Part shown: in pieces, positions 2,607 to 64,000 of the stretch
Numbering within the stretch: position 1 is the stretch's first letter
Layout of the letters: every line of letters begins with the position of its first letter
Origin: Halichondria panicea
Lineage: Eukaryota > Porifera > Demospongiae > Suberitida > Halichondriidae
DNA: 64,000 nt
Reading direction: 5' to 3'
Assembly: GCF_963675165.1 (NCBI RefSeq)
Contig: NC_087378.1
Location: 829,001 to 893,000, forward strand
The notes under the pieces: generated by a model
What the model saw: the letters and a program-made list of their open reading frames with translations, nothing else
Databases searched by the model: none
Told to the model about the DNA's origin: nothing
Made by a program: the position numbers and the translations under genes

Positions 2607-3045
2607 TGCAGCTTGTATAATACTTTGCAGACAGAGGTACTGATGTTGTCTTGCTAGGCCGGTGAGCTGACACTGCCACGCCCTCAAATTGGAGTCGATG
2701 GAACGCGCATGCTCAGTTGCTAAAACATGTTAACCATGACTCTGAGTTAACTAACTAACTAACACAAAACACTGATCAATAACACCTTTTTTTGAATATT
2801 GCTTTGTGAATCAACCAAATCAGCTTTTTCGATCTAACTAACTATTGCGTTCTGCAAGGATCGTGTTTTGTTGATCAATCGAAGTTCATTATTATGTTTT
2901 GATGCTTGCAGTAATACGGTAATAGGAAATATCTAGGTGGTAACAGTACATATACATGTATACACAAAACACTAAAGTAATCTAACCATCTAAGGTGCCA
3001 GCGAGTCTAGGTAAATAGTATTTTTATGACAAAAGTTATTTTTAA
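2607..3045. other. Intergenic gap between the two beta-helix paralogues
   Basis: About 440 bases separate the start of copy 1 from the stop of copy 2. Bases 2672-2694 match 6684-6706 upstream of copy 2 exactly (starting actgccacgccctc), so the proximal 5' flank was duplicated with the gene. No other gene or RNA is visible. Confidence 0.7.
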
Positions 3046-6606: not shown

Positions 6607-6793
6607 AGCTTTTAGCTTGGTTAGTTGAGCCAGTTGAGTAGTCTTGAATCAATTCCAGAGGCTGCATGCAATACATGGCCAGGACTGCCACGCCCTCAAA
6701 TTGGAGGTGGTGTTTGGCACCAAAGCTGACGCAGCAGAAGGTCAGCACAGTCATGAATTCATGAGCTTGCTTGAAGAGACACTAGCTACAGAC
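6607..6793. promoter_or_regulatory. Compact bidirectional promoter region
   Basis: 187 bases lie between the ATG of the minus-strand beta-helix gene (6606) and the preferred ATG of FIP200 on the plus strand (6794). Both 5' ends must use this interval or lie within the neighbouring gene. A 23-base piece (6684-6706) also occurs upstream of copy 1 at 2672-2694, so it may be a conserved promoter element. No TATA box is obvious. Confidence 0.5.
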
Positions 6794-42890: not shown

Positions 42891-43059
42891 AACTGATTTT
42901 TTATTCTATTCATTCTTTGAATGCATACCTTTGATGATGCAATGTCATATAATTTTCTACACAACAAATAATTATTGTGCTATAATTATAATTATAAATG
43001 GTGCATTGAGGGAAATACCAAACAAGCTAAACACGTACAGCACTATATAATATGCATGT

Positions 43060-46000
43060 TTACATAATTGTTCCCGGGTCAGAATCGACGGAGCCAATAG
43101 AGCCAATGTTATTGTTCACCAAGATTTCTAAAGATTTCTCATTCTCGTACTGCATGCACAGATCCATCAATTAAACACTGTGAAATAATTATAGGCTTAC
43201 CTTCTGTAGCTGCTTCTTCTCGATCTCTAGCTGAGCAACTTTGGCCTCTAGTTGCTTAATTTTCAATTCAGCTTCATCTACAACACTTATTTTCCTAGTA
43301 CTTAGAGAAATCTCAGCTGTATTAGGTTCACTGCTTTTGTCAAAAATGTTCTCTCCCTTTGGATCTCGAGCTAGGCTCACCATCTGCATGTACAGAATAC
43401 ATAATTAAGTATAGCTATAGAATTATGCTTACCTTGGGAATGAAGACAAAACTCAAGAATGCAGTACTGACAATTATAATTCCTCCAGAAAAGATGGCCT
43501 CGCTCACATTGAGTAGATGGTTTACACCAAATATAGCAACTGCTCTGGTGACTAACACAATGCTGGATATGTAAATCAGAGCAGCGATGTACTTGGAATC
43601 ATTCAACACTTTGACCTTCACTTTGCGTGTTTGAATTGCTAGAACAATTCCCACAATTTGCAACAATACCAAATAGAGGAAGGTCACAATCATCCACGGA
43701 GTAGCTTCTACACTGGCACCATCAAAGCAGTTGTATACTTTGTTGTTGATGCTTACATTATATTCCTGTAAATGAGTTTTAAGTACATAGTTGTATGTCT
43801 AAGGTTGGAGGATAGAAAGTATGAACAAACGTACGTCTTTTTCAATCCCGTGTTCATCGTCAGGAATCAGTTGTGGAGTTGGCCTGAGTTGAGGAATAGC
43901 CACTTGCAGTGTTACGAGTAGTGTTCCGAATCCTGTGACGAGCAGTGTGACTATAATCAGATGCCAATCCCTGACAGTCTGTAAAGCAACAATAATGCGT
44001 GACTGTACTTTCCACATGCATTATAACAATAATACCGTTTTGCTTGCTGTTGGGTTATTAAAGATGTAGTTGATCCTCCCCATTTTCGCTAGAATCACTC
44101 CAAACGCCATACAGTAGCCGATGTTGTACACTAGGGTATCCATCTATTGTGCACATGCAAGCATATACAATTTCGAAGTAATACCTGGCTGAGGCATTAT
44201 GTTGCAATATGTTTATACTATTTTACTGACTTACAATGCATCTCGCATAGTTAATGTCATACACAGTGCTTGATATGAGTCGAAGAAACACTGCTGCATA
44301 CATTATGTATGTGCCAGCTATGAGAAAGTAGTTGAGGTTAGGGCTTGTGAGTTTCACAATCCTACAGCAAAAAATAAATAATACATGTCTTTAGTAGAGT
44401 GCCACTTGGGCTAAAGTTTACTATATACCTCTTATTTCGCTGTGTAAAGTTGAAGACCAGGCAGACAGTACTGTACAGGATACCCAAACCAGCGAGGATG
44501 TAGTAGCAACTAACCAGTGCATCGTGAAATGTATTGACCTTATTGAATGGAGTTCCATCAGGAGGAACACCACCTATTTGCATAAGTTGAGTAGATAGAT
44601 ACATGATCCACATGACACTGTACCTGAATAGACTGTATCAGTTGACTCGTTGCTCAGGTGTACAATTGCTATTGCAGTAGTACTGTTCTGATCATACTCT
44701 GTTCGTGCAAAGTACTGTTCTCGCAGCATTCCATCACTTATTCTATACTGAAATATCTGACTGTTTGCTTGAAACCTGGAGCCAACGGCGAATTGAACTC
44801 GGCCCTATAAAAGCAGCATAAAAAAATAATAAACTTGTATACATTGAACTTACAGATACTCCTAAAAAGTCTGTTCTTTGAAGGTTCCATCGTATAACAC
44901 AGCTCATGAGTCGATTGTCATTTGTGAAATTCCCCAGAGAGACTAATTCCCAGCGCATTCCGTCTATTGAGTTTTCTCCCAAGCACCCTGTTGTGTTTAG
45001 AATATCATCTCTTGTCATCTCTTGTAGCATATGGTTTGTTTTGTCCAGAGCAAATGCAAAGGTCCATAGAGCGTCATATCCAATAGGAGCCACAAACGAA
45101 GAACTGTAGTTGCTTGTACTCGATGTTGTTTCATAGAGGGTGTCAAATTCATTAGCGGTCTGAATAAAGAAAGAATTACACTAATAAATCAACTAAGTAG
45201 GACGGACACTCACCAGTCCAGTATCAGTCATAGCGTTTTCATCAGTTGGGACGGCAAAGATCTGAATTGTTATAACTTTATCCAAAAACTCTGCTAACTG
45301 GCTGCTTGTACAACCAGTATCAGCATCTTGAGTCCACCATTCCTCTGCATACCATGCGTACAAGATCCAAGCATACCTTGGATAGGTATAGCCGCGTTTA
45401 TAGGCCTGAATTAGTGAGAGACATTCACAATGGTAGCATTTTGAAATACCTCTCCATCTCACCTCGCATATTATGTGTTGTGCAAATTGAGAGTAAGCAC
45501 TGATAAAAAATACACGATAGTCATCATCTTCTAACTGCATTTTTGTGTGTGGGATAAACATAGACACGATATACTAATGGTATAGGATTATAATATTAAG
45601 TAACACAGTAACTATATATACACATGAAGTACAACACATTTTAGCTCAAACAATAGCAATACAGTTGAGCCTCGATTATCTGAATCGCTGAATTCTCAAT
45701 TATTCGGATGAAAGATTAGTCGCAAATGCCTTAGCCATAGATTACGCATTAAGTGTCCATGCATGAGGTTGAAAGCTTTTGTGTTGCTGATTAGCAGAAG
45801 CAGCTAAACGCTTCAGCTTAGCCTAACAGTATAGCTTGCTACCTTGTTCTGTCCACTGATGCATTATGTCCCAAACTTAATTAAGTATATAAGAGCTCTG
45901 GACATCGTTTGCTGATTTTTCATGCAGAGGCTACTCGAATTATGGATGTGGCTCATAATTATATAGAGTCGTTCTGATATCTGAATATTTCAGCCATCCG

Positions 46001-46983
46001 GATGAGGTGGGGACACCAGGTGCATGTTCGAATAATCGAGGTTCAACTGTACTAACCTGGCTGCTTATAAAAATGCTCATGTATTTTACAGAAGAACAAG
46101 TTGTTAACATAAATTATACTTATAACTCACAAAGAAGTTCTCTGTGGAAGTATTCAGTCCTTGAATGGGTAGCTCACTACGAAATACTCTGTTCTGTACA
46201 GTCACATTCTGAGCGACTAATGTTTGTTTCAGTGTTTCAAAATTCTGCAAAAAAGATTGATTTGAAAAACTACACAGTATACCAACTTCTTTTTACCCCA
46301 GTAAAGATTCCTTCATTTTGAATTAGGATGGCAACTCTTTTCCATCCATACTGCTGAACGATTGCATTAAAGACTGTGGGAAATTCAGCATCAGATGGAT
46401 AGGTACGAAAGAAGTTAGGAAATCGATCCTGGTCATCAAGTTCAACCGAAGACGATGCATAAGCTATCTGTATTGGTATTAAATGGATAAATGCCCCTAG
46501 GCATACTGTAGCTGAAAACATAATAATGTAACACTTTCTGCTAACCTGTGAGAGGCTCTTGTGTTGCACTATCTCTGCCACTGGTGTAGAAGCTACTGAA
46601 CAGCCACACCCAAGTAGTCCCAGGATAGGAGGATTGGGAGAAGAGAGGGCCTCAAAGAATAGACCCAGTGATATTGCTCTGTCACACTGTGTAGAAGGGG
46701 AATGGTTTAACTAGCTAGAATCACAATAGCTGGGTGCAAAATGCAGCTGAGTTTGTATTCAGCATACCTAACTTGCCTTAGTGTCTTTGATTCCAATATG
46801 TGCTAATGTGTAGCCAGGCAAGATAGAGTCATTGCTGTTAACCATCTGCTCAGCCAGTTCAATCGCAGGCACTGCTCCAGATGAGTCAAATCCTTCAGTT
46901 GCAGTGAATAATGCATACTTTAGCTCCACAGTTTGTCCCTGTGAGTATCTCAAAAGCATCAGTAGAAGAGCAAGGACCTTCAT
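43060..46983 (-). CDS. GABA-B-like class C receptor A (15 exons, 837 aa)
   Basis: Exons: 46777-46983, 46546-46686, 46297-46467, 46131-46244, 45463-45534, 45214-45405, 44854-45159, 44624-44804, 44429-44573, 44235-44361, 44036-44143, 43835-43978, 43433-43765, 43201-43383, 43060-43149; phases agree. Signal peptide (VLALLLMLLRYSQG), then a Venus-flytrap domain to residue about 460: GLLGCGCSVASTPVAE matches GABA-B1 LGCSSVSTLVAE, and DRFPNFFRTYPSD matches QRFPTFFRTHPSA. Seven TM helices occupy residues about 470-745, ending FVFIPK (GABA-B FVPKM region). The tail carries a coiled coil (ELKIKQLEAKVAQLEI) like the one GABA-B subunits use to dimerise. Ligand unknown. Intron 1 uses a GC donor. Intron 4 holds a pogo-like MITE. 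This copy sits beside the intact SDR gene and so probably marks the ancestral site of the array. Confidence 0.93.
45662..46049. mobile_element. pogo/Tigger-like MITE in receptor A intron 4
   Basis: 388 bases with inverted ends cagttgagcctcgattatc and gataatcgaggttcaactg (reading the right end 5'-3' as aataatcgaggttcaactg), flanked by TA at 45660-45661 and 46050-46051. Internal sub-terminal copies of attcggatga/catccggatg are present. CAG...CTG ends with TA duplication and the CTCGATTATC core are typical of pogo-type Tc1/mariner elements. It is absent from the same intron of B and C. Confidence 0.8.
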
Positions 46984-47631
46984 TTTCCACAAATATAGAC
47001 TCTTTGACACTATACTATACTTGGCAGTTGGCACACAAACAGTTGTTATACTCCCACGGATCACAGTAGTAAGGGGGGTGGGGCTCGTTGTGTTGACTCT
47101 GTGGATACAATAGTCTCGCGGGCCACTACTGTTGAAGATCATCTAGCCTCGATCCCAGCCCTCTAGTGAGAGGGGCTAAACTCGAAACAGAGCCGTCACT
47201 GTTGCGAGTCATCAAAGCTGCTATGCATTCGTCTCGCAAGTCAGACGTTTCATCCCGGATGTAACTAGTCTAGCTAACTAGATCTAGATGTAGCTGAACT
47301 ATTAGTAACTGTACAACCTTACTACTGCTTCATTGCATTCACACACCTGCACCATGCACCCTATTCAGATTTAATATAATTCCTGTCAATTCTGTCTTGC
47401 TTTGAGTGAATAACTTTGATGATACAATGTCTACAACAAATAATTATTGTGCTATAACATAGCTCATAGTTCCCTGCTAAACATACTCAAATGGGATCTA
47501 TACATGGTGAATTGGGGAAGTATACATGTACGAAACAATTAAGTTAAACTATACAGCATTATTAAAAGGAACAGCATGCATGTTTATATAGTTGTTCACG
47601 AGCTAAAATCAACAGAGCCATTGATTGTTCA
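46984..47631. other. Spacer between receptors A and B, with a decayed SDR 3' flank
   Basis: 648 bases. Bases about 47401-47457 (tttgagtgaata, then tttgatgatacaatgtc) match the 3' flank of the SDR gene at about 42915-42970. A degenerate tagcctcgatcccag hairpin of the short-element family lies near 47152-47185. Otherwise AT-rich; it should hold the promoter of A and the 3' UTR of B. Confidence 0.6.
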
Positions 47632-50600
47632 CTAAGATTTCTCATTCTCGTACTGCAAGGAGGTATAATTATAATCATCATGCATGCATGCATCAGAGAA
47701 TTAAACACTGAAAATAATTATAGGCTTACCTTCTGTAGCTGCTTCTCAAGCTGAGCAACTTTGGCCTCTAGTTGCTTGGTTTTCAATTCAGCTTCATCTA
47801 CAACACTTACATTCCTAGTACTTAGAGAAATCTCGGCGGCAGTAATGTTACCGCTTCTGTCAAAAATATTCTCTCCCTCTGGATCTCGAGCTAGGCTCAC
47901 CATCTGCATGTATATAATTATACAGAATACATAATTAAAAATAAAACATTTATATGCTTACCTTGGGAATGAAGACAAAACTCAAAAATGCAGTACTGAC
48001 AATGATAATTCCTCCAGAAAAGATGGCCTCGCTCACATTGAGTAGATTGTATACACCAAATATAGCAACTGCTCTAGTGACTAACACAATGCTGGATATG
48101 TAAATCAGAGCAGCGATGTACTTGGAATCATTCAACACTTTGACCTTCACTTTGCGTGTTTGAATTGCTAGAACAATTCCCACAATTTGCAACAATACCA
48201 AATAGAGGAAGGTCACAATGATCCACGCAGTAGCTTCCACATTGGCATCATCAAAGCAGCTGTAAAAGGTGTTGTTAATTCTTACGCCTTCCTGCATGTA
48301 AATGAGTTTTATAAGCACTATATATGATAGTATAGCTAATTCGAAGCCTGAAGTGAATAGTTAGTATGTCTATAAGGATGCTTGGGAAAGTGACGATAGT
48401 ATATACTGTCACACTACTGTTGGGCCTATCAATTTTGGGTATAGTTCCGCTTTTTAATATTAACGTTCCCTTCAACATTTATTGAGTTGCCATTTGAATT
48501 AGAACGCAAAAATTAGAAAGGTAAGAACAAACGTACGCCTTGATCAATCCTATGTTCATTGTCTTGAATCAGTTGTGGAGTTGGCCTGAGTTGAGGGATA
48601 GCCACTTGCAGCGTTACGAGTAGTGTTCCAAATCCTGTGACGAGCAGTGTGACTATAATCAGATGCCAATCCTTGACAGTCTGTAAAGCAACAATAACGC
48701 GTGTAATTTCCACATGCATTATACCAATAATACCGTTTTGCTTGCTCTTGGATTATTAAAAATGTAGTTGATCCTCCCCATTTTCGCTAGAATCACTCCA
48801 AACGCCATACAGTAGCCGATGTTGCTCATTAGGGTATCCAACTATTGTGTACATGCAAGCATATAATTATATAATAATGTACAATTTCAAAGTCCATGAA
48901 GCTTTACATTTAATATAACATATACCTATTATTCTACTGACTCACAATGCATCTTGCATAGTTTACTCCATCAAGCACAGTGCTTGATATGAGTTGAAGA
49001 AACACTGCTGCATACATTATGTATGTGCCAGCTATGAGAAAGTAGTTGAGGCTAGGGCTTGTGAGTTTCACAACCCTATATACAGAGAAAAATACAAAAA
49101 TTAATCCACTTCTTTAGTATATATATAACGTACATTTAACTATACCTTTTATTTCGCTGTGTAAAGTTGAAGACCAGGCAGACAGTACTGTACAGGATAC
49201 CCAAACCAGCGAGAATGTAGTAGCAACCAACCAGTGCATCGTGAAATTTATTGACCTTATTGAATGGAGTTCCATCAGGAGGAACACCACCTATATATTG
49301 GTACAAGTTGAGTAGATAGATAGATAGATGATCCACATGTCACTGTACCTGAATAGACTGTACCAGTTGACTCGTTGCTCAGGTGTACAATTGTAGTAGT
49401 ACTGTTCTGATACTCTGTTCGTGCAAAGTACTGTAGTTGCAGCGTTCCATTACTTTTGTTTAGTCTATACTGGAATATCTGACTGTTTGCTTGAAACCTG
49501 GAACCAACGTCATTGAAATGAACTCGGCCCTATAAAAACACCATCAAAAATAGTAAACTTGCACATTGAGCTTACAGATACTCCTAAAAAATCTGTTCTT
49601 TGAAGGTTCCATCGTATCACACAGCTCATGAGTCGATTGTCGTTTGTGAAATTCCCCAGAGAAACTGATTCCCAGCGCATACCGTCTCTCAAGTTTTCTC
49701 CCAAGCACCCTGTTGTGTTTAGAATATCATCTCTTGTCATCTCTTGCAGCATATGGTTTGTTTTGTCCAGAGCAAATGCAAAGGTCCATAGAGCGTCATA
49801 TCCAATGGAAGCCAAATACGAATAACTGTAGTTGCTGTAGTTGCTTGTACTTAATTTTTCTTTATATTGGGTGGCAAATTCATTTGCAGTCTGAATAAAG
49901 TTACGATATAATAAATAAACTAAGTATATAGGACGGACACTCACCAGTCCAGTATCAGTCATAGCGTTTTCATCAGCAGGGACGGCAAAGACCTGAATTG
50001 CTATAACATTATCCAAAAACTCTGCTAACTGACTGCTTGTACAATCAGTACCAGCATCTTCAGTCCACCATTCATCTGCATACCATGCGTACAGGATCCA
50101 AGCATACCTTGGATAAGTATAGTTCCGTGTATAAGCCTGAATAGTGAGATCAAGAGTATAATGATAGAGAAGAAAGTATATTGAACGTAGGCATGCTGTA
50201 CATCAGATGTATGCGGAGAGTAACGTGACTTCCTGTATCTGTCACAAGCTGGAATTTGCACACTGACCAATCCAAGCAGGTGGTGATGTAATCTATCAAG
50301 AAAGTAGATTACATCACCCACACTTGGATTGATCAGTGTGCAAATTCCAAGCCCAAGACAGATATAGGAAGTCGCGTTACTCTCCGCATACATCTGCATG
50401 ATGTACAGCATGCCTACGTTCGATACTCTCTTCTCTATCACAATTATACTCTTGGTGAGAGGCATTCACAATAGTAGCAATTTCAAGTACTTCTCGATCT
50501 CACCTCGCATATTATGTGTTGTGCATATTTAGAGTAAGCACTGATAAAGAATACACGATAGTCATCGTCTTCAAACTGTGCATGGGATAAAAAACACACA

Positions 50601-51909
50601 ATATCTAAATGCTGGGATTAAAACCACCATATACTGTAAGTCTATACATGCAGCAAACAATAATTATAGCTCAAACAATGGCTATATATTCTAGCCTGAC
50701 TGCAAGCAGTTAGCGCCGCGTTACTTTCGAAGTGTGTTCTTTAATCCATTACTCATATATACACACGTAAAGATAATATTTTGTTCTTTAATCCATTACT
50801 TACACACGTAAAGATAACATTATTTGCTGTAATCCATTACTCATACACACACGTAAACTTAAGATAACACTTTGCTCTTTAATCCATTACTCACAAAAGT
50901 TGACCTGTATATACCTTCTGTCACAAACACATGCAAGTCGCTTGTACCTTCTGTCACAGTATATTATTCGAAAAGAAACTCACAAAGAAGTTCTCTGTGG
51001 AAGTATTCAGTCCTTCAATGGGTAGCTCACTATGAAATACTCTGTTCTGTATTGTCACATTGTGAGTGACTAACGTTTGTTTCAGTTTTTCAAAATTCTG
51101 CAAAAAGTATATGAGAAGAGCCACACAGTACAAAAATTATTTTTACCCCAGTAAAGATTCCTTCATTTTGAGTTAGGGTGGCAACTCTTTTCCATTCATA
51201 CTGCTGAATGACTGCATTAAAAACTAGGGGAAATTCAGCATCAGATGGATAGGTACGAAAGAAGTTAGGAAATCGATCCTGGTCATCAAGCTCAACCGAA
51301 GAAGATGAATAAGCTACCTGTATTGGATATTAAATGCCCATAGATAAAAACTAACGACTAAAGAATGACACCTTCTGTAGATTACAAAGCTTGCATAATG
51401 TACCTGTGAGAGGCTCTTGTGTTGCACTATTTCTGCCACTGGTGTAGAGGCTACTGAACAACCACACCCAAGTAGTCCCAGGATAGGAGGATTGGGAGAA
51501 GAGAGGGCCTCAAAGAATAGACTCAGTGAAGTTGCTCTGTCACACTGTAGGAGAGGAATGGTTCAGTATTTGCTGAGCACACTAAAATGTTGTGTATTGC
51601 ACACTTTTGCAATTAAAAGTATGCAACATTTTAGTGTACTTCAGTGAAATATAGCTGCATGGGTGCAAAATGCAGCTGATCTGTATTCAGTACCTAACTT
51701 ACCTTAGTGTCTTTGACTCCAATATGTGCTAATGTGTAGCCAGGCAAGATAGAGTCATTGCTGTTAACCATCTGCTCAGCCAGTTCAATTGCAGGCACTG
51801 CTCCAGATGAGTCAAATATTTCAGTTGCAGTGAATAATGCATACTTTAGCTCCACAGTTTGTCCCTGGGAGCATCCCAAGAGCACCAGTAGAAGAGCAAG
51901 AACCTTCAT
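47632..51909 (-). CDS. GABA-B-like class C receptor B (15 exons, 814 aa, short tail)
   Basis: Exons: 51703-51909, 51404-51544, 51147-51317, 50984-51097, 50504-50575, 49945-50136, 49576-49890, 49349-49529, 49146-49290, 48946-49075, 48734-48841, 48537-48680, 47962-48291, 47730-47903, 47632-47652; phases agree. Same architecture as A: signal peptide, Venus-flytrap, seven TM helices, coiled coil (ELKTKQLEAKVAQLEKQLQK). The last exon stops after YENEKS, whereas A, C and D continue for 23-26 more residues ending near GSVDS. Intron 1 has a normal GT donor (AAG|GTAAGT), unlike A and C. TM3 starts LDTLMSNIGYC instead of MDTLVYNIGYC. Intron 5 carries a 0.3 kb foldback insertion and intron 4 a tandem repeat. 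It looks functional; ligand unknown. Confidence 0.92.
50151..50454. mobile_element. 0.3 kb foldback element inserted in receptor B intron 5
   Basis: Arms of about 145 bases are almost fully complementary: the left arm begins caagagtataatgatagag and the right arm ends tctatcacaattatactcttg. The centre is near 50300. It is flanked by gtgaga on both sides (50144-50149 and 50455-50460). Receptors A and C have the uninterrupted site (cctgaattagtgagaggcatt), so this is an insertion with a 6-base target duplication, younger than the array duplication. Confidence 0.88.
50737..50893. repeat. Tandem repeat (about 45 bases x 3-4) in receptor B intron 4
   Basis: Units share ttctttaatccattact...cacacgtaaagataaca, starting near 50737, 50784, 50826 and 50876 (last partial). 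A single relative occurs in receptor C intron 4 near 55730-55760. Confidence 0.75.
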
Positions 51910-52895
51910 TTTCTAAATTCTGACACTAGGCACACAAACAGTTGTTTAAATACTCCCACAGATCAATCACAGCCATAAAAGTGCTACTAGTAGTAGGGGG
52001 TGGGGCTCGTTGTGCTGAACTCCACAAGGTGCACTCTATTATTGAACCTGTGTGACCTAGGAGTGCAGCAAGGATGCTATATATAAGGTGAGGGTGTGCA
52101 GGAAACATTTTGTCTCCTAAAATCTTCAAGTATGAAAGGACCAATTTTTAAATTATATTTCGTACCAATCATATTAATTAACTCTGTAGCCTTTGAAAAA
52201 TTAATAATTATTCTGTAAGCTATTGTCTACTATTGTTTCGTACTTATGCAGAAACTGAAGTTGAGTGTTGTTGGGTCAGAGATAATTGGGCCAGTGCCTT
52301 GATAATTATGCTCGAATAATTTTAGCATAATAAATGCCCATTTTTGGTAAAGATCATTACATTAAGTTTTGTATATAACGACGATGTTCTCATCAAATGG
52401 CTGAAGGTGGATCAGTTCAAACCAGCAAACACTGAGATCAATTATGTCGTGTGTCAGTTATGTGCTGTGTTTATGTCTACGTCCTAATTTGTATTATGTC
52501 ACATTCAGATTTTTATAAGAATAATCAGAGAATGTTCGGATTTTTTTATGAGATTAATTAATAGGCACATTTTTCAAGAATAGAATAATGGGTGAAAAAA
52601 AGCATAATTTATCAGGGCCTAGTCACTGTTTTGCAAGTCTTAAAAGTGCGATTGGTCATCTAGACAGACAGGGTCTCAGTTCCATATCCACAAGTATGGA
52701 CACTTCTGTGGGCAGTCAAAAGAAGGACTGAAACTGTTATTAATTGTTTAATTCCTGTAAATTCTTTGAGTGAATACCTTTGATGATACAATGTCATATA
52801 ATTTTCTACATGTCTATACAATGAATAATTATTGCTATAAAATGGTGCATTGGGAAAAACAAGTTGAACACGTACATACACTATAATAGACATGT
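51910..52895. other. Spacer between receptors B and C with an SDR 3'-exon remnant
   Basis: 986 AT-rich bases. It holds the SDR remnant at 52691-52740 (listed separately) followed by an SDR-like 3' flank to about 52830 (tttgagtgaatacctttgat). The remainder, including 52140-52650, shows nothing I recognise. Confidence 0.55.
52691..52740 (+). pseudogene. SDR last-exon remnant beside receptor C
   Basis: The stretch aagtatggacacttctgtgg...ggactgaaactg matches the end of the intact SDR exon 6 (42850-42895), including the stop region. The rest of the exon is gone. It lies at the same position and orientation relative to receptor C as the intact SDR does to receptor A. Confidence 0.8.
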
Positions 52896-55800
52896 TTATA
52901 TATTAATTGTTCCTGTGACAGAATCGACGGAGCCAATAGAGCCATTGATATTGTTTTTGTTTACCAAGATTTCTGAAGGTGTTTCATTGTCATACTGCAC
53001 AGAGGTATATTTATCAATCAATTAAACACTGGAAAATAATTATAGGTTTACCTTCTGTAGCTGCTTCTCAAGCTGAGCAACTTTGGCCTCTAGTTGCTTG
53101 ATTTTCAATTCAGCTTCATCTACAACACAATTCTTAGTGCTTAAAGAAACCTCGGCTGTAGTAGTGCCACCGCTTATGTCAAACATTTTCTCTCCCTTTG
53201 GATCTCGAGCTAGGCTCACCATCTGCATGTACAGAATGCATAATAAAAAATATATAGCATTTTTAATACTTACCTTGGGAATGAAGACAAAACTCAAAAA
53301 TGCAGTACTGACAATTATAATTCCTCCAGAAAGGATGGCCTCGCTCACATTGAGTAGATTGTTTACACCAAATATAGCAACTGGTCTGGTGACTAACACA
53401 ATGCTGGATATGTAAATCAGAGCAGCGATGTACTTGGAATCATTCAACACTTTGACCTTCACTTTGCGTGTTTGAATTGCTAGAACAATTCCCACAATTT
53501 GCAACACTACCAAATAGAGGAAGGTTACAATGATCCACGCAGTAGCTTCTACACTGGCACCAGCAAAGCAGTTGTAAACTGTGTTGTTGATCCTTACATT
53601 ATATTCCTGTAAATGAGTTTTACAAGCACTATAATTATGACAGTGGATAATTCAAAGTGTATAGTTGTATGTTGGGAGTGAGTATTATATATAAAGTATG
53701 AACAAATGTACATCTCTTTCAATCCCATATTCATCGTCTAGAATCAGTTGTGGAGTTGGCCTGAGTTGAGGGATAGCCACTTGCAACGTTACGAGTAGTG
53801 TTCCGAATCCTGTGACGAGCAGTGTGACTATAATCAGATGCCAATCCTTGACAGTCTGTAAAGCAACAATAATGCGTGACTGTACTTTCTACATGCATTA
53901 TAAAATAATACCGTTTTGCTTGCTGTTGGGTTATTAAAGATGTAGTTGATCCTCCCCATTTTCGCTAGAATCACTCCAAACGCCATACAGTAGCCGATGT
54001 TATACACTAGGGCATCCATCTATTGTGCACATGCAAGCATATACAATTTCGAAGTAATCCCTGAGGCATTATGTTGCAATATCTTTATACTATTCTACTG
54101 ACTTACAATGCATCTCGCATAGTTAATGTCGTACACAGTGCTTGATATGAGTTGAAGAAACACTGCTGCATACATTATGTATGTGCCAGCTATGAGAAAG
54201 TAGTTGAGGTTAGGGCTTGTGAGTTTCACAATCCTACAGCAAAAAATAAATAATACATGTCTTTAGTAGAGTGCCACTTGGGCTACACTTCACTATATAC
54301 CTCTTATTTCGCTGTGTAAAGTTGAAGACCAGGCAGACAGTACTGTACAGGATACCCAAACCAGCGAGGATGTAGTAGCAAATAACCAGTGCATCGTGAA
54401 ATGTATTGACCTTATTGAATGGAGTTCCATCAGGAGGAACACCACCTATTGGCATAAGTTGAGTAGATAGATACATGATCTATATCATGCTATTGGCATG
54501 AGTTGATTAGATAGATAAATGATATTCGGTACCTGAATAGACTGTATCAATTGACTCGTTGCTCAGGTATACAATTGCTAGTGTAGTAGTACTGTTCTGA
54601 TCATACTCTGTTCGTGCAAAGTACTGTACTCGCAGCATTCCATCACTTTCGTTTAGTCTGTACTGAAATATCTGACTGTTTGCTTGAAACCTGGAGCCAA
54701 CGTCATTGAATTGAACTCGGCCCTATAAAAACAGGATCAAAAACAGTAAACTTGCACATTGAACTTACAGATACTCCTAAAAAGTCTGTTCTTTGAAGGT
54801 TCCATCGTATAACACAGCTCATGAGTCGATTGTAACTCGTGAAATTCCTAAGAGAGAAAAATGTTGCGTTTATCAAGTTTTCTCCTGAGCACCCTGTTGT
54901 GTTCAGAATATCATTATCTTGCAGCATATGGTTTGTTTTTTCCAGAGCAAATGCAAAAGTCCATAGAGTGTCATATGCGACAGAAGCCGAATACAAGTAA
55001 CTGTAGTTGCTGTAGTTTCTTGTATTTAATTTTTCTTTATATTGGGTGGCAAATTCATTTGCAGTCTGAATAAAGTTACGATATAATAAATATAATAGGA
55101 CGAATGCACTTACCAGTCCTGTATCAGTCATAGCGTTTTCATCAGCAGGGACGGAAAAAACCTGAATTGCTATAACTTTCTCCAAAAACTCTGCTAACTG
55201 ACTGCTTGTACAACCAGTACCAGCATCTTGAGTCCACCATTCATCTGCATACCATGCGTACAGGATCCAAGCATACCTTGGATAGGTATAGCCGCGTTTA
55301 TATGCCTGAATTAGTGAGAGGCATTCACAATGGTAGCACTTTCAACGATCTCACCTGGCATATTATGTGTTGTGCATATTGAGAGTAAGCACTGATAAAG
55401 AATACGCGATAGTCATCATCTTCAAACTGTGCATGGGATAAAAACACTAAATGCTGGGATTATATGCAAGTATAGATGATAGCATCAAACATTATATATA
55501 GCTCAGGCAATAATTATGTTATTACATGGCTATGAAAAGGCCCTCGACCACAATCTACTACCGGGCCAATAATCTGTTCGTGACGAATTGCCATGTAATA
55601 ACTAATTTTGTAGAAGTGAGTGTATTCATGCATACTCTGTACCATAAAAACCATATACTCGGGCTCCGCCCCTCGTGCTTGGTGGGTTTACTGCCATAAA
55701 TCCCTAGAACCATAGTATAACTATAACTTAATCCATTACCGTAAAAATAACATTTTGTTCGCTACACCATTATACTCACACACATTCCCTGCAGAGAATA

Positions 55801-58050
55801 CAACACCATACTAAACCCTACACAAGAATACCTGCACACACAATAAAGGGCCTAACAACAACAGTACGTTGGCGAGAATGATCACAATGCACACAGAGCC
55901 CAACAACTGTAACAACAACAGTTGGCGAGAATGATCACAATGCACACAGAGCCCAACAACTGTTACTTTCACTTTATACAATTACATAAAGTTAACATTT
56001 TCATTGCTCACACACGTAACAAAAGTTGTTTGAGATACAGTTATTGGTTTGCAGAACACAGAGTAGCTGTATAGGCCGTGACTCTAAAAGTGTGTTGTGA
56101 TTTTATGGTGATCAGTTCATGCATGAAATGAAGTTGCTGTACTGCCCATCACCTTTAATAAATCTTTGAATATGGTGTAGGTAGGCACGTTAGCAGGCGC
56201 AGCACTGAAAAGTATCAAATTTACTGCACATGCAGTGTTGATTTGTAGAATTTGAACTATACTCTTCAGTATTTCTCTTGTGGGAAGCTACACCATAACA
56301 GAGGATTGTACAGCTCAACACATGAAGTTCTAGCCTCGATTCAAGGCCGATTAAAATACGGCCTGGTACCTATTGCATGGTGATAGTGCGCATGCGTTAG
56401 TTTATTCACTAGAATCTGGGGAATCCCCTTTTTTCTTTCTCATCTATTTTCTATCTTTGTACATCAGCTTAGCTCTCTATTGCGTTGTTCCAGAAGGCTT
56501 TCACACTATTCTGAAGCCAGAAGAGGCTTTCATCTACCTCTATGTCAGTTGTATGGTCAGAAAGTCTTACCTTGGATCTGTACAGGCTATGGGAAGTGTA
56601 TGGTGCTTCAAACTGCTACTCTCTAAGACAACCCGGGCCGGCTATAGGACCATCCTAAACGTAGATGAGAGCCTCTTCTGTCTTAAAACTAGTGTTCAAG
56701 CTTTCTAGACCAACGCAATAGACGGCATAAGCCACAGCTTCACAGAACTCAGTCACAGAGATAAAGTATTATGGAACATATTCTTAGTAAACGGAGTAAT
56801 TTCCGGTATAATTTACTAAGGTTTTACGTTCGTAGTACGATTACCCATATTCTGGTAATTTGAAGCGCATGCGCACTATCACCCCTGCAATAGGTACCAG
56901 GCCGTATTTTAATCGGCCTTGAATCGAGGCTAATGCAGTTCATGAAAGACTCCTCGACGTGGGCAGTGCCTGGGCGGATAAATTGCTTGATCAAAGAGCT
57001 GCACTGCACCTGTCATACCTCCTCTGACTCAGAGTATAACAACTGCTATTCTGCAAACCACTGTATACCTTCTGTCACAAGAAATATTGTTGTCTTTAAC
57101 ACTGTACTATTCATATAGGAAGCTCACAAATAAGTTCTCGGAAGGCATCTCACAAAGAGGTTCTCTATATGGAAAAAACTCACAAAGAAGTTATCTGTGG
57201 AAGTATTCAGTCCTTGAATTGGTAGCTCACTACGAAATACTCTGTTCTGTACAGTCACATTCTGAGCAACTAATGTTTGTTTCAGTCTTTGAAAAGTCTG
57301 CAAAAAGTATTGGTATGAAAAACCACACAGTACAAAAATTCGGTTTACCTCAGTAAAGATTCCTTCATTTTGAGTTAGGATGGCAACTCTTCTCCATCCA
57401 TACTGCTGACGTATTGCATTAAAAACTGTGGGAAATTCAGCATCTGATGGAATGACACGAAAGAAGTTAGGAAATCGATCCTGGTCATCAAGCTCAACCG
57501 AAGACGATTCATAAGATACCTGCATTGAGAATTGCCATAGATAAAATTAGCGACTAAAGAATGACAGCTTCTGTAAGATTACAAAGCTTGCATAATGTAT
57601 ACCTGTGAGAGGCTTTTGTGCTGCACTATTTCTGCCACTGGTGTAGAGGCTACTGAACAGCCACACCCAAGTAGTCCCAGGATAGGGGGATTGGGAGAAG
57701 AGAGGGCCTCAAAGAATAGACTCAGTGAAGTTGCTCTGTCACACTGTGTAGGAGGGGAATGGCTAGCTTAGACTATAGAATCAATAGCTAATTGGTGCAA
57801 AATGCAGCTGAGCATCTACCTAACTTGCCTTAGTGTCTTTGACTCCAATATGTGCTAATGTGTAGCCAGGCAAGATAGAGTCATTGCTGTTAACCATCTG
57901 CTCAGCCATTTCAATTGCAGGCACTGCTCCAGATGAGTCATATCCTTCAATTGCAGTGAATAATGCATACTTTAGCTCCACAGTTTGTCCCTGGGAGTAT
58001 CCCAAGAGCACCAGTAGAAGAGCAAGAACCTTTATTACAAATATCTTCAT
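52896..58050 (-). CDS. GABA-B-like class C receptor C (15 exons, 841 aa)
   Basis: Exons: 57829-58050, 57603-57743, 57349-57519, 57184-57297, 55355-55426, 55114-55305, 54769-55065, 54533-54722, 54301-54445, 54107-54233, 53912-54019, 53712-53855, 53274-53606, 53052-53222, 52896-52994; phases agree. The architecture matches receptor A. The N-terminus has five extra residues (MKIFVIKVLALLL). The flytrap segment differs most from the others: DRFPNFFRVIPSD instead of RTYPSD, and a shortened exon 7 (NHMLQDNDILN, NLINATFFSLRNF), so ligand specificity may have shifted. Intron 1 uses a GC donor like A. Intron 4 is 1.8 kb and carries a 0.6 kb tagcctcga-type element and other small repeats. The gene appears intact; ligand unknown. 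Confidence 0.92.
55518..55603. repeat. Small inverted repeat in receptor C intron 4
   Basis: The arms gttattacatggc and gccatgtaataac enclose about 60 bases. It may be a hairpin MITE remnant. Non-coding. Confidence 0.5.
55868..55963. repeat. Direct 43-base duplication in receptor C intron 4
   Basis: The unit gttggcgagaatgatcaca...caacaactgt occurs at 55868-55910 and 55921-55963, essentially identical, so the duplication is recent. Confidence 0.85.
56331..56932. mobile_element. 0.6 kb non-autonomous element, tagcctcga family, receptor C intron 4
   Basis: About 602 bases with inverted termini of about 65 bases: tagcctcgattcaaggccga...gcgcatgcg on the left and the complement on the right. Flanks atgaagttc (56322-56330) and atgcagttc (56933-56941) match at 8 of 9, an aged 9-base target duplication. 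This suggests a Mutator-like origin. The open frame inside (56373-56708) has no transposase features. The very short hairpins at 15013, 28969 and 36028 share the same ends. Confidence 0.8.
57121..57195. repeat. Repeated exon-4 donor motif in receptor C
   Basis: The motif ctcacaaagaagttctc (complement of the exon 4 end plus donor) occurs three times in imperfect form: near 57122, 57150 and 57178. Only the last matches the frame used in the paralogues (donor at 57183). Confidence 0.6.
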
Positions 58051-58400
58051 TAAAAATATAGACTATTAGATTCTGACACTATAGGCACACAAACAGTCTG
58101 AGTTGCTTAAATACTCACAGATCGATTAGTCTTGCACAGCCATCCCCGGATGTTTTCTATTTGAATGCTAGGTCGTCGATAACATGGTTTTTTAGGGGCT
58201 GGTGCGAGACTACAGATTGATCACCTACAATCCACAATTGTTAGGGTGGGGGTGGGGCTCGTTGTGCTGAACGCCAAAAATGCAACCTGGTTGTGAGTGT
58301 GTTCCCAACTGACGCAATGTTCAAGCCATCCGCCTCTGCCATCAAGAGTACTGAAGGATGCTCTCTGTTGGACGTGTAGAATATTTAAGTGTAGCCTGTA

Positions 58401-58484
58401 GGGTGTGAAGTATGAAATTCAGAACATCTCAGAATGCCATGCCAAACAAAGCATGAGATGTTCTGAATTTCATATTTAACACCC
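58401..58484. repeat. Hairpin repeat upstream of receptor C
   Basis: The arms gggtgtgaagtatgaaattc...acatctca and tgagatgt...gaatttcatatttaacaccc pair over about 30 bases with a 20-odd-base loop. Possible minimal foldback element. Confidence 0.65.
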
Positions 58485-58834
58485 AAACACAACCATGTTA
58501 GTCTGTAGCCTTCAAATAAACATCTTTCTGTAAGCTACTATTGCTTTTTACTTGTGCAGGAGCTGAAGTTGGGTGTTGTTGGGTCAGAGATAGCTAGTGG
58601 GACTAGTACCTCTCAAGCCCATTTTGATGGCAGCTGATTTAAATATTACACATACTGGGTCTCAACTTCATACCTGAGTTCAAGCCTCAGGAAAAATTAT
58701 TGAGTAGGTTTAGAGTTAGAATTTTAACAGTAACTTGGTTACAATCATATAATGTACAATGTCACTGTAGAAGTTGATCAAGGATAATGTATTCCTAGAG
58801 CTCAATCTACGTATTACCATTTCCTCACTCTCAG

Positions 58835-58961
58835 GTATCGTGTTGGGAGCAATGCAGATGGTCCTTTGGCCAGTGGTAGTGTGCGCTCATTTGTGGAACA
58901 GCTGACAGAGAGAACGTCAGCACCAGGAGGGGGCTCTACTTCAGCCTACATTACTAGTATG
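58835..58961 (+). pseudogene. Orphan exon fragment of a formiminotransferase-cyclodeaminase-like gene
   Basis: An open segment bounded by a good acceptor (cctcactctcag) and donor (ATG|GTGAGC). It encodes LASGSVRSFVEQLTER followed by TSAPGGGSTSAYITSM. This matches the start of the cyclodeaminase domain of FTCD (FV..V..RT..PGGGS..A). No neighbouring exons of such a gene are visible, so it is most likely a fragment carried in by duplication. An exon of a gene with distant exons is less likely. Confidence 0.65.
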
Positions 58962-59125
58962 GTGAGCACTCTGTTACTGTGCATGATGAGATTTGTTCAT
59001 GGTAGTTGTTTGTTTGTTGTTTGCATTGCGTATGTTGTCTGCATGTGTCTAGCAATAGGACCCGAGGAGGTGGTGAATGTAGAAGTGTCCCTGTTTGAAC
59101 AGTAAAGTGTTTAATAAAGTATCTT

Positions 59126-59200
59126 TGAGCGGCCATAACTTTAGTTACGTTGGTCCAATCGCATTGAAAGCTAAGAGAGGCCTTTTTCAGATAATGTGTT
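59126..59200 (+). repeat. Interspersed repeat copy, plus strand
   Basis: Related in reverse orientation to 28625-28715 (gcggccataactttagtt ... gagaggccttttt). Unknown class. Confidence 0.4.
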
Positions 59201-59271
59201 AAAAATCGGCCAAAATACCAGGGGCTTTACTTATCTTGTGTACAACTCATCCAGGGAGCAGCATTGGGTTT

Positions 59272-59492
59272 GCAAGATATGGAAGCGTTTCATTCTGACC
59301 AGTATTTGCTCATGACTCCGTAACATTGTAGTATTATATGAACCATAAGCCATGCCAAAACGTGTGTTGCTTAATAGGTATCACTTGTTTCTGTTTTGTT
59401 ACAGGATTTCCCCCCCAAGTATGCTATATATATGCTAGAGGCTGGCAAGTGCTTCGGTGCAGATAAAAGTATGGACACTTTTGTGGGCAGGC
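59272..59492 (+). pseudogene. SDR exon 5-6 remnant beside receptor D
   Basis: Bases 59272-59320 (atggaagcgtttcattctgac, agtatttgctcatgactcc) match SDR exon 5. After a shortened intron, 59405-59492 match exon 6 (gaggctggcaag, tatggacacttttgtggg). Exon 5's end and donor are deleted, exon 6 carries indels, and the reading frame and stop are lost. The intervening ggtatcacttgtttctgttttgttacag is retained almost unchanged from 42769-42796. Host gene fragment, not functional. Confidence 0.88.
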
Positions 59493-59714
59493 ATATGAAT
59501 TGTTTTTAATTCTTGTTCATTCTTTGAGTGAATACCTTTGATGATACAATGTCATCTAATTTTCTATACAACAAATAATTATTGTGCTATAATTATATTG
59601 AGGGAAATACAAAAAAAGAATTATAATTTTCTAATCACTATTTTATGCTATATATATATAATTATAAATTATTGGGAGAAATACAAATTACAAATACAGC
59701 ATAATTATTCATGT

Positions 59715-62700
59715 TTATATAATTGTTCCCGAGACAGAATCGACTGAGCCAATACAGCCATTGATATTGTTTTTGTTCACCAAGATTTCTGAACATTTTT
59801 CATTCTCATACTACACAGAGGTATATATTTATCAACCAATTAAACACTGAAAATAGGCTTACCTTCTGTAGCTCCAGTTTCTTTTTCTCAAGCTGAGCAA
59901 CTTTGGCCTCTAGTTGCTTTATTTTCAATTCAGCTTCATCTACAACGCTTACTTTCCTACTTAGAGAAATCTCGGCCGTAGTAATGTCACTGCTTTTGTC
60001 AAACACATTCTCTCCCTTTGGATCTCGAGCTAGGCTCACCATCTGCATGTATATACAGAATACATATTTAAGAATAGACATTTATATACTTACCTTGGGA
60101 ATGAAGACAAAACTCAAAAATGCAGTACTGACAATGATAATTCCTCCAGAAAGGATGGCCTCGCTCACATTGAGTAGATTGTTTACACCAAATATAGCAA
60201 CTGGTCTGGTGACTAACACAATGCTGGATATGTAAATCAGAGCAGCGATGTACTTGGAATCATTCAACACTTTGACCTTTACTTTGCGTGTTTGAATTGC
60301 TAGAACAATTCCCACAATTTGCAACACTACCAAATAGAGGAAGGTTACAATGATCCACGCAGTAGCTTCTACACTGGCACCAACAATGCAGTTGTAAACG
60401 GTGTTGTTGATCCTTACATTATATTCCTGTAAATGAGTTTTAAGTACATAGTTGTATGTCTAAGGTTGGAGGATCAAAGTATGAACAAACGTACGTCTCT
60501 TTCAATCCCGTGTTCATCGTCTGGAATCAGTTGTGGAGTTGGCCTGAGTTGAGGGATAGCCACTTGCAACGTTACGAGTAGTGTTCCGAATCCTGTGACG
60601 AGCAGTGTGACTATAATCAGATGCCAATCCCTGACAGTCTGTAAAGCAACAATAACGCGTGACTGTACTTTCCACATGCATTATAACAATAATACCGTTT
60701 TGCTTGCTGTTGGGTTATTAAAGATGTAGTTGATCCTCCCCATTTTCGCTAGAATCACTCCAAACGCCATACAGTAGCCGATGTTGTACACTAGGGTATC
60801 CATCTATTGTGCACATGCAGGCTTATTAGTCTCCCGGAGACATTATATTATTGCGATGTACATTATAATGTATGGTGCTAAAATATAGATTTCTCTTATA
60901 AGCAGTCAAAACAAACAATGAAACCGTCTAACAAACATGCAAGTGGTCTAAACATTCAAGCGGTCTAAACGCACATGCAAGGAGGAAACGATATAATACT
61001 TATTTTTTGACTCTGAGCTCACACACACACCAGTTATTGCTTATTCAAACAATCGTCTAAACAAACATTTAAGCGGTTTAAACGCACATGCAAGGAGGAA
61101 ACTATATAACACTTATTTTCTGACTCTGAGCTCACACACACACCAGTTATTGCTTATTCAAACAATTGTCTAAACAAACATGCAAGCGGTATAAACGCAC
61201 ATGCAAGGAGGAAACGATAACACTTATTTTCTGACTCTGAGCTCACACACACCAGTTATTGCTTATTCAAACAATCGTCTAAACAAACATGCAAGCGGTA
61301 TAAACGCACATGCAAGGAGGAAACGATAACACTTATTTTCTGACTCTGAGCTCACACACACCAGTTATTGCTTATTCAAACAATCGTCTAAATAAACATG
61401 CAAGCGGTATAAACGCACATGCAAGGAGGAAACGATATAACACTTATTTTCTGACTCTGAGCTCACACACACCAGTTATTGCTTATTTAAACAATCGTCT
61501 AAACAAACATGCAAGCGGTATAAACGCACATGCAAGGAGGAAACTATATAACACTTATTTTCTGACTCTGAGCTCACACACACACCAGTTATTGCTTATT
61601 TAAACAATCGTCTAAACAAACATGCAAGCGGTATAAACGCACATGCAAGGAGGAAACTATATAACACTTATTTTCTGACTCTGAGCTCACACACACACCA
61701 GTTATTGCTTATTCAAACAATCGTCTAAACAAACATGCAAGCGGTATAAACGCACATGCAAGGAGGAAACTATATAACACTTATTTTCTGACTCTGAGCT
61801 CACACACACCAGTTATTGCTTATTCAAACAATCGTCTAACAAACACGCAAGTGGTATAAACGCACGTGCAAGGTGGAAACTATATAACACTTATTTTCTG
61901 ACTCTGAGCTCACACACACACCAGTTATTGCTTATTCAAACAATCATCTAAACAAACATTTAAGCGGTATAAACGCACATGCAAGGAGGAAACTATATAA
62001 CACTTATTTTCTGACTCTGAGCACACACACACACCAGTTATTGCACTTGAATTCTGTCATGTGACTGTATTAATTAGAACCATTGGTGCTGGCAAATGTG
62101 GTGAGAAAGATCACTCGCACTATATCACAGCTAGGGAGTATGTATAGAATGTGAGGTTTTCACATGTGACCTTTATTTTTTATCTACCAAGCTACTAGCC
62201 TTGGTCCCACACCAATTTTTTTTAATACCTAGCGTTCAATTAGTGGGCCAGGAATGAGGCTTCCAAGCTACAGCTTATGGTTGTTTTAGATGCTGACCGC
62301 TTGCATGTTTGCATGATGACTCATTCATATTGGCACTGATTGCACACTATATAGATCTATAATTATTACTACTGACTTACAATGCATCTCACATAGTTTA
62401 CTTCATACACAGTGCTTGATATGAGTTGAAGAAACACTGCTGCATACATTATGTATGTGCCAGCTATGAGAAAATAGTTGAGGTTAGGGCTTGTGAGTTT
62501 CACAACCCTATACAGAAAAAGACAAAATTAATACACACTTCATAAGTACGTATACATTTAACCTTTTATTTCGTTGTGTAAAGTTGAAGACTAGGCAGAC
62601 AGTACTGTACAGGAGACCCAAACCAGCGAGAATGTAGTAGCAAATAACCAGTGCATCGTGAAATGTATTGACCTTATTGAATGGAGTTCCATCAAGAGGA

Positions 62701-64000
62701 ACACCACCTATTGGCATAAGTTGAGTAGATAGATACATGATCTATATCATGCTATTGGCATGAGTTGATTAGATAGATAAATGATATTCGGTACCTGAAT
62801 AGACTGTACCAGTTGACTCGTTGCTCAGGTATACAATTGCTAGTGTAGTAGTACTGTTCTGATGGTCTGTTCGTGCAAAGTACTGACTTGCAAGCGTTCC
62901 ATTACTTTCGTTTAGTCTATACTGATATATCTTACTGTTTGCTTTAAACCTGGAGCCAATGTCATTGAAATGAACTCGTCCCTATAAAAGCAGCACATCA
63001 AATATAGTAAACCTGCACATTGAACTTACAGATATTCCTATAAAGTCTGTTCTTTGAAGGTTCCATCGTATAACACAGCTCATGAGCCGATTGTCATTTG
63101 TGAAATTTTCCAGAGAGACTAATTCCCAGCGCATACCGTCTCTCGAGTTTTCTCCCAAGCACCCTGTTGTGTTTAGAATATCATCTCTTGTCATCTCTTG
63201 CAGCATATGGTTTGTTTTGTCCAGAGCAAATGCAAACGTCCATAGAGCGTCATATCCAATAGGAGCTACAAACGAAGAACTGTAGTTGCTTGTACTCAAT
63301 GTTGTTTCATAGAGGGTGTCAAATTCATTTGCGGTCTATAAAGAAAGAATTACACTAATAAATCAACTAAGTAGGACAGACACCCACCAGTCCAGTATCA
63401 GTCATAGCGTTTTCATCAGAAGGGACGGCAAAGACCTGAACGGCTAAAACTTTATCTAAAAACTCTGCTAACTGGCTGCTTGTACAACCAATATCAGCAT
63501 CTTGAGTCCACCATTCATCTGCATACCATGCGTACAGGATCCAAACATACCTTGGATAGGTATAGCCTCGTTTATAGGCCTGAAATTATATAATAATAGT
63601 GAGAGGCATTCACAATGATTATGGTAGTACTTCATCTCACCTCGCATATTATGTGTTGTGCAAATTGAGAGTAAGCATTGATAATGAATACACGATAGTC
63701 ATCATCTTCTAACTGCATGGCATGGGGATAAAAAATACAATATCTAAATCTAACCAACAACTATTTTAAATACACAGTAACTTATAGTATACAATCAAAC
63801 AACAGCCTGAATGCTTAGAGGAATGCCGTTCCCTAATCCATCACAGACGGTATAACTATGTTGTTATCTTTGCCATACTTATAATTATAGCCGCTATAAT
63901 TCATAGGAAACTCACAAAGAAGTTTGTATTTAATTCTTGAATGGGTAGCTCACTACGAATTACTCTGTTCATTACAGTCACATTCTGAGCGACAAACATT
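59715..64000 (-). CDS. GABA-B-like class C receptor D (5' part off the right edge)
   Basis: Visible exons, numbered as in A: part of exon 4 63917-64000 (edge), then 63641-63712, 63388-63579, 63030-63335, 62795-62981, 62563-62707, 62381-62507, 60696-60803, 60495-60638, 60094-60426, 59863-60042, 59715-59810; phases agree and the frame is open throughout. It holds the second half of the Venus-flytrap, all seven TM helices, the coiled coil (ELKIKQLEAKVAQLEKKKLE) and the GSVDS-type tail ending SGTII. Exon 7 is closest to A and intron 8 is closest to C. The intron between exons 10 and 11 is swollen to 1.6 kb by a minisatellite array. It looks intact; the missing signal peptide and exons 1-3 should lie beyond the window. 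Confidence 0.9.
60904..62043. repeat. Minisatellite array, unit about 110 bases, about 10 copies, in receptor D intron 10
   Basis: Units contain aacaaacatgcaagcggtat, aacgcacatgcaaggaggaaac, cacttattttctgactctgag and ccagttattgcttattcaaac. Copies are very similar; most differences are short (ctatata/cgata, cacaca length). A stray inverted piece, accgcttgcatgtttgc, lies beyond the array at about 62298-62315. Receptors A-C lack the array. Frames through it are not genes. Confidence 0.92.

Follow-up and report, generated by a model that had tools for sequence, protein, structure and literature searches.

Remnants of two neighbouring genes at the joints of a GABA-B-like receptor array in the sponge Halichondria panicea

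How does a cluster of receptor genes start, and can its founding event still be read from what lies between the copies? A 64,000-nucleotide stretch of the Halichondria panicea genome (assembly GCF_963675165.1, contig NC_087378.1, positions 829,001 to 893,000; here the window, in whose numbering positions are given) raises this question, as it holds four open GABA-B-like receptor genes, receptors A to D, in direct tandem on one strand. An earlier note on this DNA had described such an array and traced it to a unit of SDR gene tail plus receptor; self-comparison and exon mapping bear out the array itself. The duplicated unit is larger than that note proposed and consists of the 3' tail of an SDR gene, the receptor and the 5' head of a formiminotransferase-cyclodeaminase (FTCD) gene, and the spacers between the receptors are scars of the FTCD-head/SDR-tail junction. 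The array is best explained, with a probability that we put at about 0.85, by a single founding tandem duplication that broke within both neighbours and was followed by unequal exchange.

Neighbour-gene remnants in the spacers

The four receptors have the hallmarks of a repeat, namely one strand, an identical exon layout and a recurring unit with common flanks. All lie on the minus strand with 15 exons and GT/GC-AG introns: receptor A at 43060-46983 (837 aa), receptor B at 47584-51909 (814 aa), receptor C at 52896-58050 (841 aa) and receptor D at 59715-64742 (837 aa). The last interval is window-equivalent, the window ending at 64000, and exons 1-3 and the beginning of exon 4 of receptor D fall past that end. 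Receptor B has lost its tail end, as its frame terminates early in exon 15. Self-comparison, a check that the earlier note had proposed, recovered the direct repeats of the receptor region together with the SDR matches; the copies are 83-92% identical over long aligned stretches. Since they are not near-identical and lie inside an 8.6-Mb contig, an assembly artefact is unlikely.

Both outer neighbours of the array are intact. On the left, the SDR gene (40530-42890, plus strand) stands tail to tail with receptor A and has six exons (40530-40696, 40955-41108, 41415-41546, 41711-41955, 42609-42734 and 42797-42890) with an open frame of 305 aa, which matches adh_short (E 1.5e-48). On the right, the FTCD gene (966-3930 beyond the window end, plus strand, 10 exons, 546 aa) stands head to head with receptor D, its start codon lying 966 bases past the window end; the 422 residues scanned contain the Pfam domains FTCD_N, FTCD and FTCD_C.

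In two of the three spacers, pieces of FTCD and SDR lie end to end, three bases apart, on the plus strand and with the order within each gene kept. The C/D spacer retains a decayed FTCD head at 58289-59269 (plus strand), made up of exon 1 (58289-58379), a block running from intron 4 through exon 5 and intron 5 to exon 6 (58376-58998), and the end of intron 6 with the first 15 bases of exon 7 (59230-59269); FTCD exons 2-4 are gone and the frames of the pieces are broken. At 59270-59272, FTCD exon 7 (equivalent position 67085) joins SDR exon 5 (42654), and SDR exon 5, intron 5, exon 6 and 3' flank follow with lesions at 59273-59597 (plus strand; match to 42654-42990, 82%, E 1e-92). The B/C spacer holds a shorter FTCD head at 52043-52688 (plus strand), with scraps of exon 4 at 52043-52056 (weak, E 0.08) and 52059-52079, of intron 4/exon 5 at 52228-52298 and of exon 5 at 52636-52688. 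Here, FTCD exon 5 (equivalent position 66472) joins SDR exon 6 (42851) at 52689-52691, and the end of SDR exon 6 with its 3' flank follows at 52692-52895 (plus strand; match to 42851-43059, 76%, E 7e-39). The A/B spacer contains outer traces of both genes only: 26 bp of the FTCD start region at 47071-47096 (plus strand) and SDR 3' flank at 47400-47457 (plus strand; match to 42915-42985, 75%, E 3e-11), with no SDR exon found by whole-genome or directed searches. The E-values of these directed searches were computed against the three spacers only.

The remnants are confined to this locus. Searched against the whole genome (131 Mb in 39 contigs, the window being 829001-893000 of contig C2), positions 42590-43180 gave six matches at E <= 0.001 (four of four candidates scored), all at the SDR gene or within the array, so the possibility that the SDR pieces are chance or dispersed matches is excluded at that sensitivity. 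FTCD residues 1-422 of 546 gave eight matches, seven in the intact gene and one in the C/D spacer; this search did not recover the B/C scraps, which rest on the directed spacer search. A genome search with FTCD DNA is weaker evidence, with 40 of 1115 candidates scored and flooding by a dispersed repeat in FTCD intron 5. A dispersed repeat also lies in SDR intron 4 (41950-42380) and takes most of the 76 matches listed for a separate search.

Much of what the earlier note had seen on the SDR side stands. It had placed decayed SDR 3' exons beside C and D and only SDR flank beside B, in agreement with our starts of the SDR pieces to within a base or two, and its reading of these pieces as duplication by-products that decayed while the receptors stayed open is borne out. 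It had also let the duplicated segment run from inside the SDR gene through the receptor. The left limit holds, but the right limit does not, as the segment reaches into FTCD; that gene lies outside the window, so the earlier reader could not see the right-hand neighbour. The decayed FTCD 5' exons at about 52043-52688 and 58289-59269, which do lie in the window, are absent from the earlier note.

One founding duplication or several

The ancestral locus would have carried SDR (plus strand), a single GABA-B-like receptor (minus strand) and FTCD (plus strand), with SDR presumably the left neighbour; the 3' end of the receptor would have lain tail to tail with SDR and its start head to head with FTCD. 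A tandem duplication whose breakpoints lay in SDR exon 5 and FTCD exon 7 would have copied SDR 3' tail, receptor and FTCD 5' head, producing a new junction at which an FTCD without its tail was followed, likewise on the plus strand, by an SDR without its head. Unequal exchange between receptor copies could then have brought their number to four and carried the junction along. Separate deletions would have eroded the junctions, the receptors staying open and exchanging sequence by conversion or crossing over.

Several observations are accounted for by this sequence of events. An FTCD head followed by an SDR tail, both on the plus strand, is the junction expected from tandem duplication of an SDR-to-FTCD segment, and both outer neighbours are intact because such a duplication leaves one complete neighbour at each end. 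Moreover, the ends of the B/C junction and the remnants in A/B fall inside the limits of the C/D junction, so no more than one founding junction, shortened by deletions, is needed. Different internal parts of FTCD are missing from the B/C and the C/D spacer, which indicates that the spacers decayed independently.

Other observations weigh against this explanation. The A/B spacer retains just 26 bp from the FTCD side and 58 bp from the SDR side, and a junction is presumed there. In the SDR-side flank, 12 of the 15 sites that divide the copies two against two pair A with C and B with D (A-D 3, A-B 0; 133 columns, gappy), a grouping at odds both with simple growth from left to right and with the receptor blocks overall. 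The junction pieces, with K80 distances of 0.12-0.31 (about 0.49 for A/B) in gappy alignments, carry too much noise for the junctions to be dated or ordered. Against the intact genes, these distances are 0.21 and 0.22 for FTCD introns 4 and 5 of C/D, 0.12-0.15 for the FTCD exon pieces of C/D, 0.13 for FTCD exon 5 of B/C, 0.155 for SDR exon 5-6 of C/D, and 0.21 (B/C) and 0.22 (C/D) for SDR exon 6 with flank, whereas the poorly aligned three-way FTCD block gives 0.24-0.31 and the A/B flank the highest value. As these values overlap, we claim no order of the junctions.

The B/C and C/D junctions also end at different points, which is compatible with tandem duplication on two or three independent occasions, with separate SDR and FTCD breakpoints each time, and copying a whole early array could bring in fresh SDR and FTCD ends. 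However, that origin needs breakpoints repeatedly in the same two genes, although homologous unequal exchange becomes possible once two copies exist, and the nesting of the B/C ends in the C/D ends is what deletion predicts. We consider independent duplications unlikely and prefer the single founding duplication.

Exchange among copies and the shared upstream element

The receptor sequences are mosaics, with stretches exchanged among the copies. At the 83 sites where the receptors divide two against two, the partition changes 38 times, compared with a shuffle mean of 51.2 (22 of 20000 shuffles as low), and the longest run of such sites, 22, was matched by none of 20000 shuffles. For the longest shared tracts of the six pairs, those of A-C, A-D and B-C were each equalled in 0 of 5000 shuffles, and shuffles as long were found for C-D (92), A-B (538) and B-D (1891); all these tests presume even rates along the gene, and uneven constraint could inflate their support. 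Identities in 200-column steps, introns included, show the best-matching pair changing along the gene. In the steps starting at 43748 and 43799, A-D reach 96-98.5% and the other five pairs 61-82%; at 44075-44345, A-C reach 96-98% and the others 77-86%; at 44436 and 44536, C-D reach 97-98% and the others 87-96%; and at 44985 and 45085, A-D again lead with 94-97% against 78-93%.

Trees of the receptors, rooted with two receptors of a class C cluster on contig C7, conflict with one another. B and C group together in the whole protein (74) and in the ligand half (86), while the tree of the seven-transmembrane (7TM) half groups C with D (56) and has A branching first with weak support (61, 56). Because the halves conflict and support is low, no single receptor tree was used as history. 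The comparison of receptor and SDR trees that the earlier note had suggested likewise gave no single common history, given the conflicting receptor halves and the A+C, B+D grouping of the SDR flank.

This bears on the unit of SDR tail and receptor alone, with A at the ancestral site, as the earlier note had polarised the array. SDR-derived sequence does adjoin B, C and D while the intact SDR gene stands beside A only, and A is first to branch in the 7TM-half tree; nevertheless, FTCD 5' pieces also occupy these spacers and run up to the SDR pieces, which contradicts an SDR-only unit and makes it very improbable. By the same logic the intact FTCD gene, found beside D only, marks the D end, so the polarity points both ways, and mosaic receptors with conflicting trees also speak against A as ancestral. 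Receptor A keeps the ancestral left edge and receptor D the right edge; as each holds one edge and the receptors are mosaic, no copy can be called the original.

The receptors are under constraint, albeit loose, with dS of 0.118-0.126 and dN/dS of 0.43-0.59 across the six pairs. The ligand domain alone has a dS of 0.13-0.17, the 7TM part one of 0.06-0.12 and the short tail one of 0.13-0.30.

A 19-bp element, GGGGGTGGGGCTCGTTGTG, is identical upstream of all four receptors, 86-197 bases from each start codon, and its only exact copies in the genome are these four (four one-mismatch sites lie elsewhere). It occupies 47074-47092 (plus strand) upstream of A, inside the last FTCD-side trace of the A/B spacer, 51996-52014 (plus strand) upstream of B, 58248-58266 (plus strand) upstream of C and 894-912 beyond the window end upstream of D. 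Because the FTCD side has decayed left of B, C and D, a putative promoter element of the receptors, which are presumably expressed, is its simplest reading; beside D, a role for FTCD as well is possible. In the C/D spacer, a frame read from the beginning of FTCD exon 7 crosses the junction for 22 codons and then stops; a fusion protein as a working gene was dropped, the frame crossing today with a stop soon after. That the spacers were retained for use, as a common receptor/FTCD start region with short FTCD/SDR transcripts, is barely credible: the unique four-fold GGGGGTGGGGCTCGTTGTG and the 22 open codons over the C/D junction would agree with it, but the receptors' own promoters account for the former, the C/D pieces lack FTCD exons 2-4 and have broken frames, and the A/B spacer is nearly empty. 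With considerable doubt, we suggest that the array may act as a small receptor-shuffling locus, in which ligand-domain and 7TM parts would pass between copies as separate tracts and make each receptor a new combination, all under one control through the unique common upstream element.

Receptor class, relatives and known clusters

The receptors are best classed, by domains and structure-database matches, as GABA-B-type class C G protein-coupled receptors. A Pfam scan of receptor A found ANF_receptor (PF01094, residues 39-421, E 1.2e-43) and 7tm_3 (PF00003, residues 477-747, E 6.4e-37); receptors B, C and D are tied to it by the 86-89% pairwise protein identity among the four. No further Pfam domain was found in receptor A at E 0.001, hence no cysteine-rich domain between the two, and GABA-B-type receptors lack such a domain between the ligand-binding domain and the 7TM part. 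The solved structures nearest to receptor A are GABA-B subunits 1 and 2 (9jqx, 6uo8 and others), aligned over nearly the full length (best E 1.7e-70). Among the best 60 of 107 matches, GABA-B subunits fill the top 17 (E 1.7e-70 to 3.1e-30), and the best metabotropic glutamate receptor follows at 4.1e-14. The array receptors share with these subunits an ANF-type ligand domain joined to a 7TM part; they are only distant relatives.

Further copies were not found on either side of the array, the earlier note having advised a search to the right: all 137 tblastn matches of receptors A-D in the window with 20 kb to its left and 50 kb to its right lie in the array, and the genome scan gave no 7tm_3 match on C2 between 889.4 kb (receptor D) and 1.37 Mb. 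That scan yielded 123 exon-level matches in the whole genome. A larger class C receptor cluster, distantly related to the array (29-57% identical per matched segment), lies on C7 at about 3.21-3.29 Mb, and further groups of matches lie on C3, C4, C5, C9 and C17. No SDR or FTCD pieces were found beside other receptors at E <= 1 in four stretches from C7, C2 and C9 (30.5 kb, part of the 7tm_3 loci).

The receptor introns show several features of their own. The exon 1 donor is GC in receptors A (46777) and C (57829) and GT in B and D. Intron 10 of receptor D contains a minisatellite (60950-62044, about nine copies of a unit of ~113 bp), the long intron 4 of receptor C an inverted repeat with two arm pairs at 82-85% (56321-56944; possibly a small transposon), and intron 5 of receptor B a long imperfect hairpin seen by eye (50180-50445). 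At the left window end, self-comparison showed a 2.6-kb direct duplicate (1-2609 and 4013-6609, 84% identical).

Receptor expansions in sponges are already known. According to the consulted sections of its genome report, Ephydatia muelleri has more than 120 predicted metabotropic GABA-like receptors, one cluster holding over 50, and many of its gene clusters are identical in exon structure, which suggests slippage and unequal crossing-over (PMC7385117). In both demosponges GABA-B-like class C receptors have multiplied in clusters; the Halichondria array differs in having four copies and a readable founding junction in two neighbour genes, and such junctions are not described in those sections (PMC7385117). 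Sdic of Drosophila melanogaster, as the consulted parts of its account present it, is a tandem family between sw and AnxB10 whose repeat is built of their fragments and which shows widespread gene conversion (PMC7475035). Both are local tandem families bounded by genes whose fragments they hold, with exchange among copies, but in Sdic the joined fragments are the multiplied gene, whereas in our array the fragments have decayed into spacers and what multiplied is the intact gene that lies between them (PMC7475035). An open chimeric gene of the Sdic kind was not found in our array, where the C/D pieces are incomplete and frame-broken and the B/C pieces are scraps. We found no published receptor array bounded by SDR and FTCD among the literature matches listed.

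The founding junction of this array is unusually legible. Many receptor clusters hide their beginnings; in this one, the cut remains of two unrelated neighbour genes at the joints keep the founding duplication readable. The locus also teaches caution, as which copy came first cannot be told from a gene left intact at one end of an array. It permits a direct test of the way in which GABA-B-like receptor clusters start, in terms of breakpoints and number of events, and of their later evolution through exchange among the copies.

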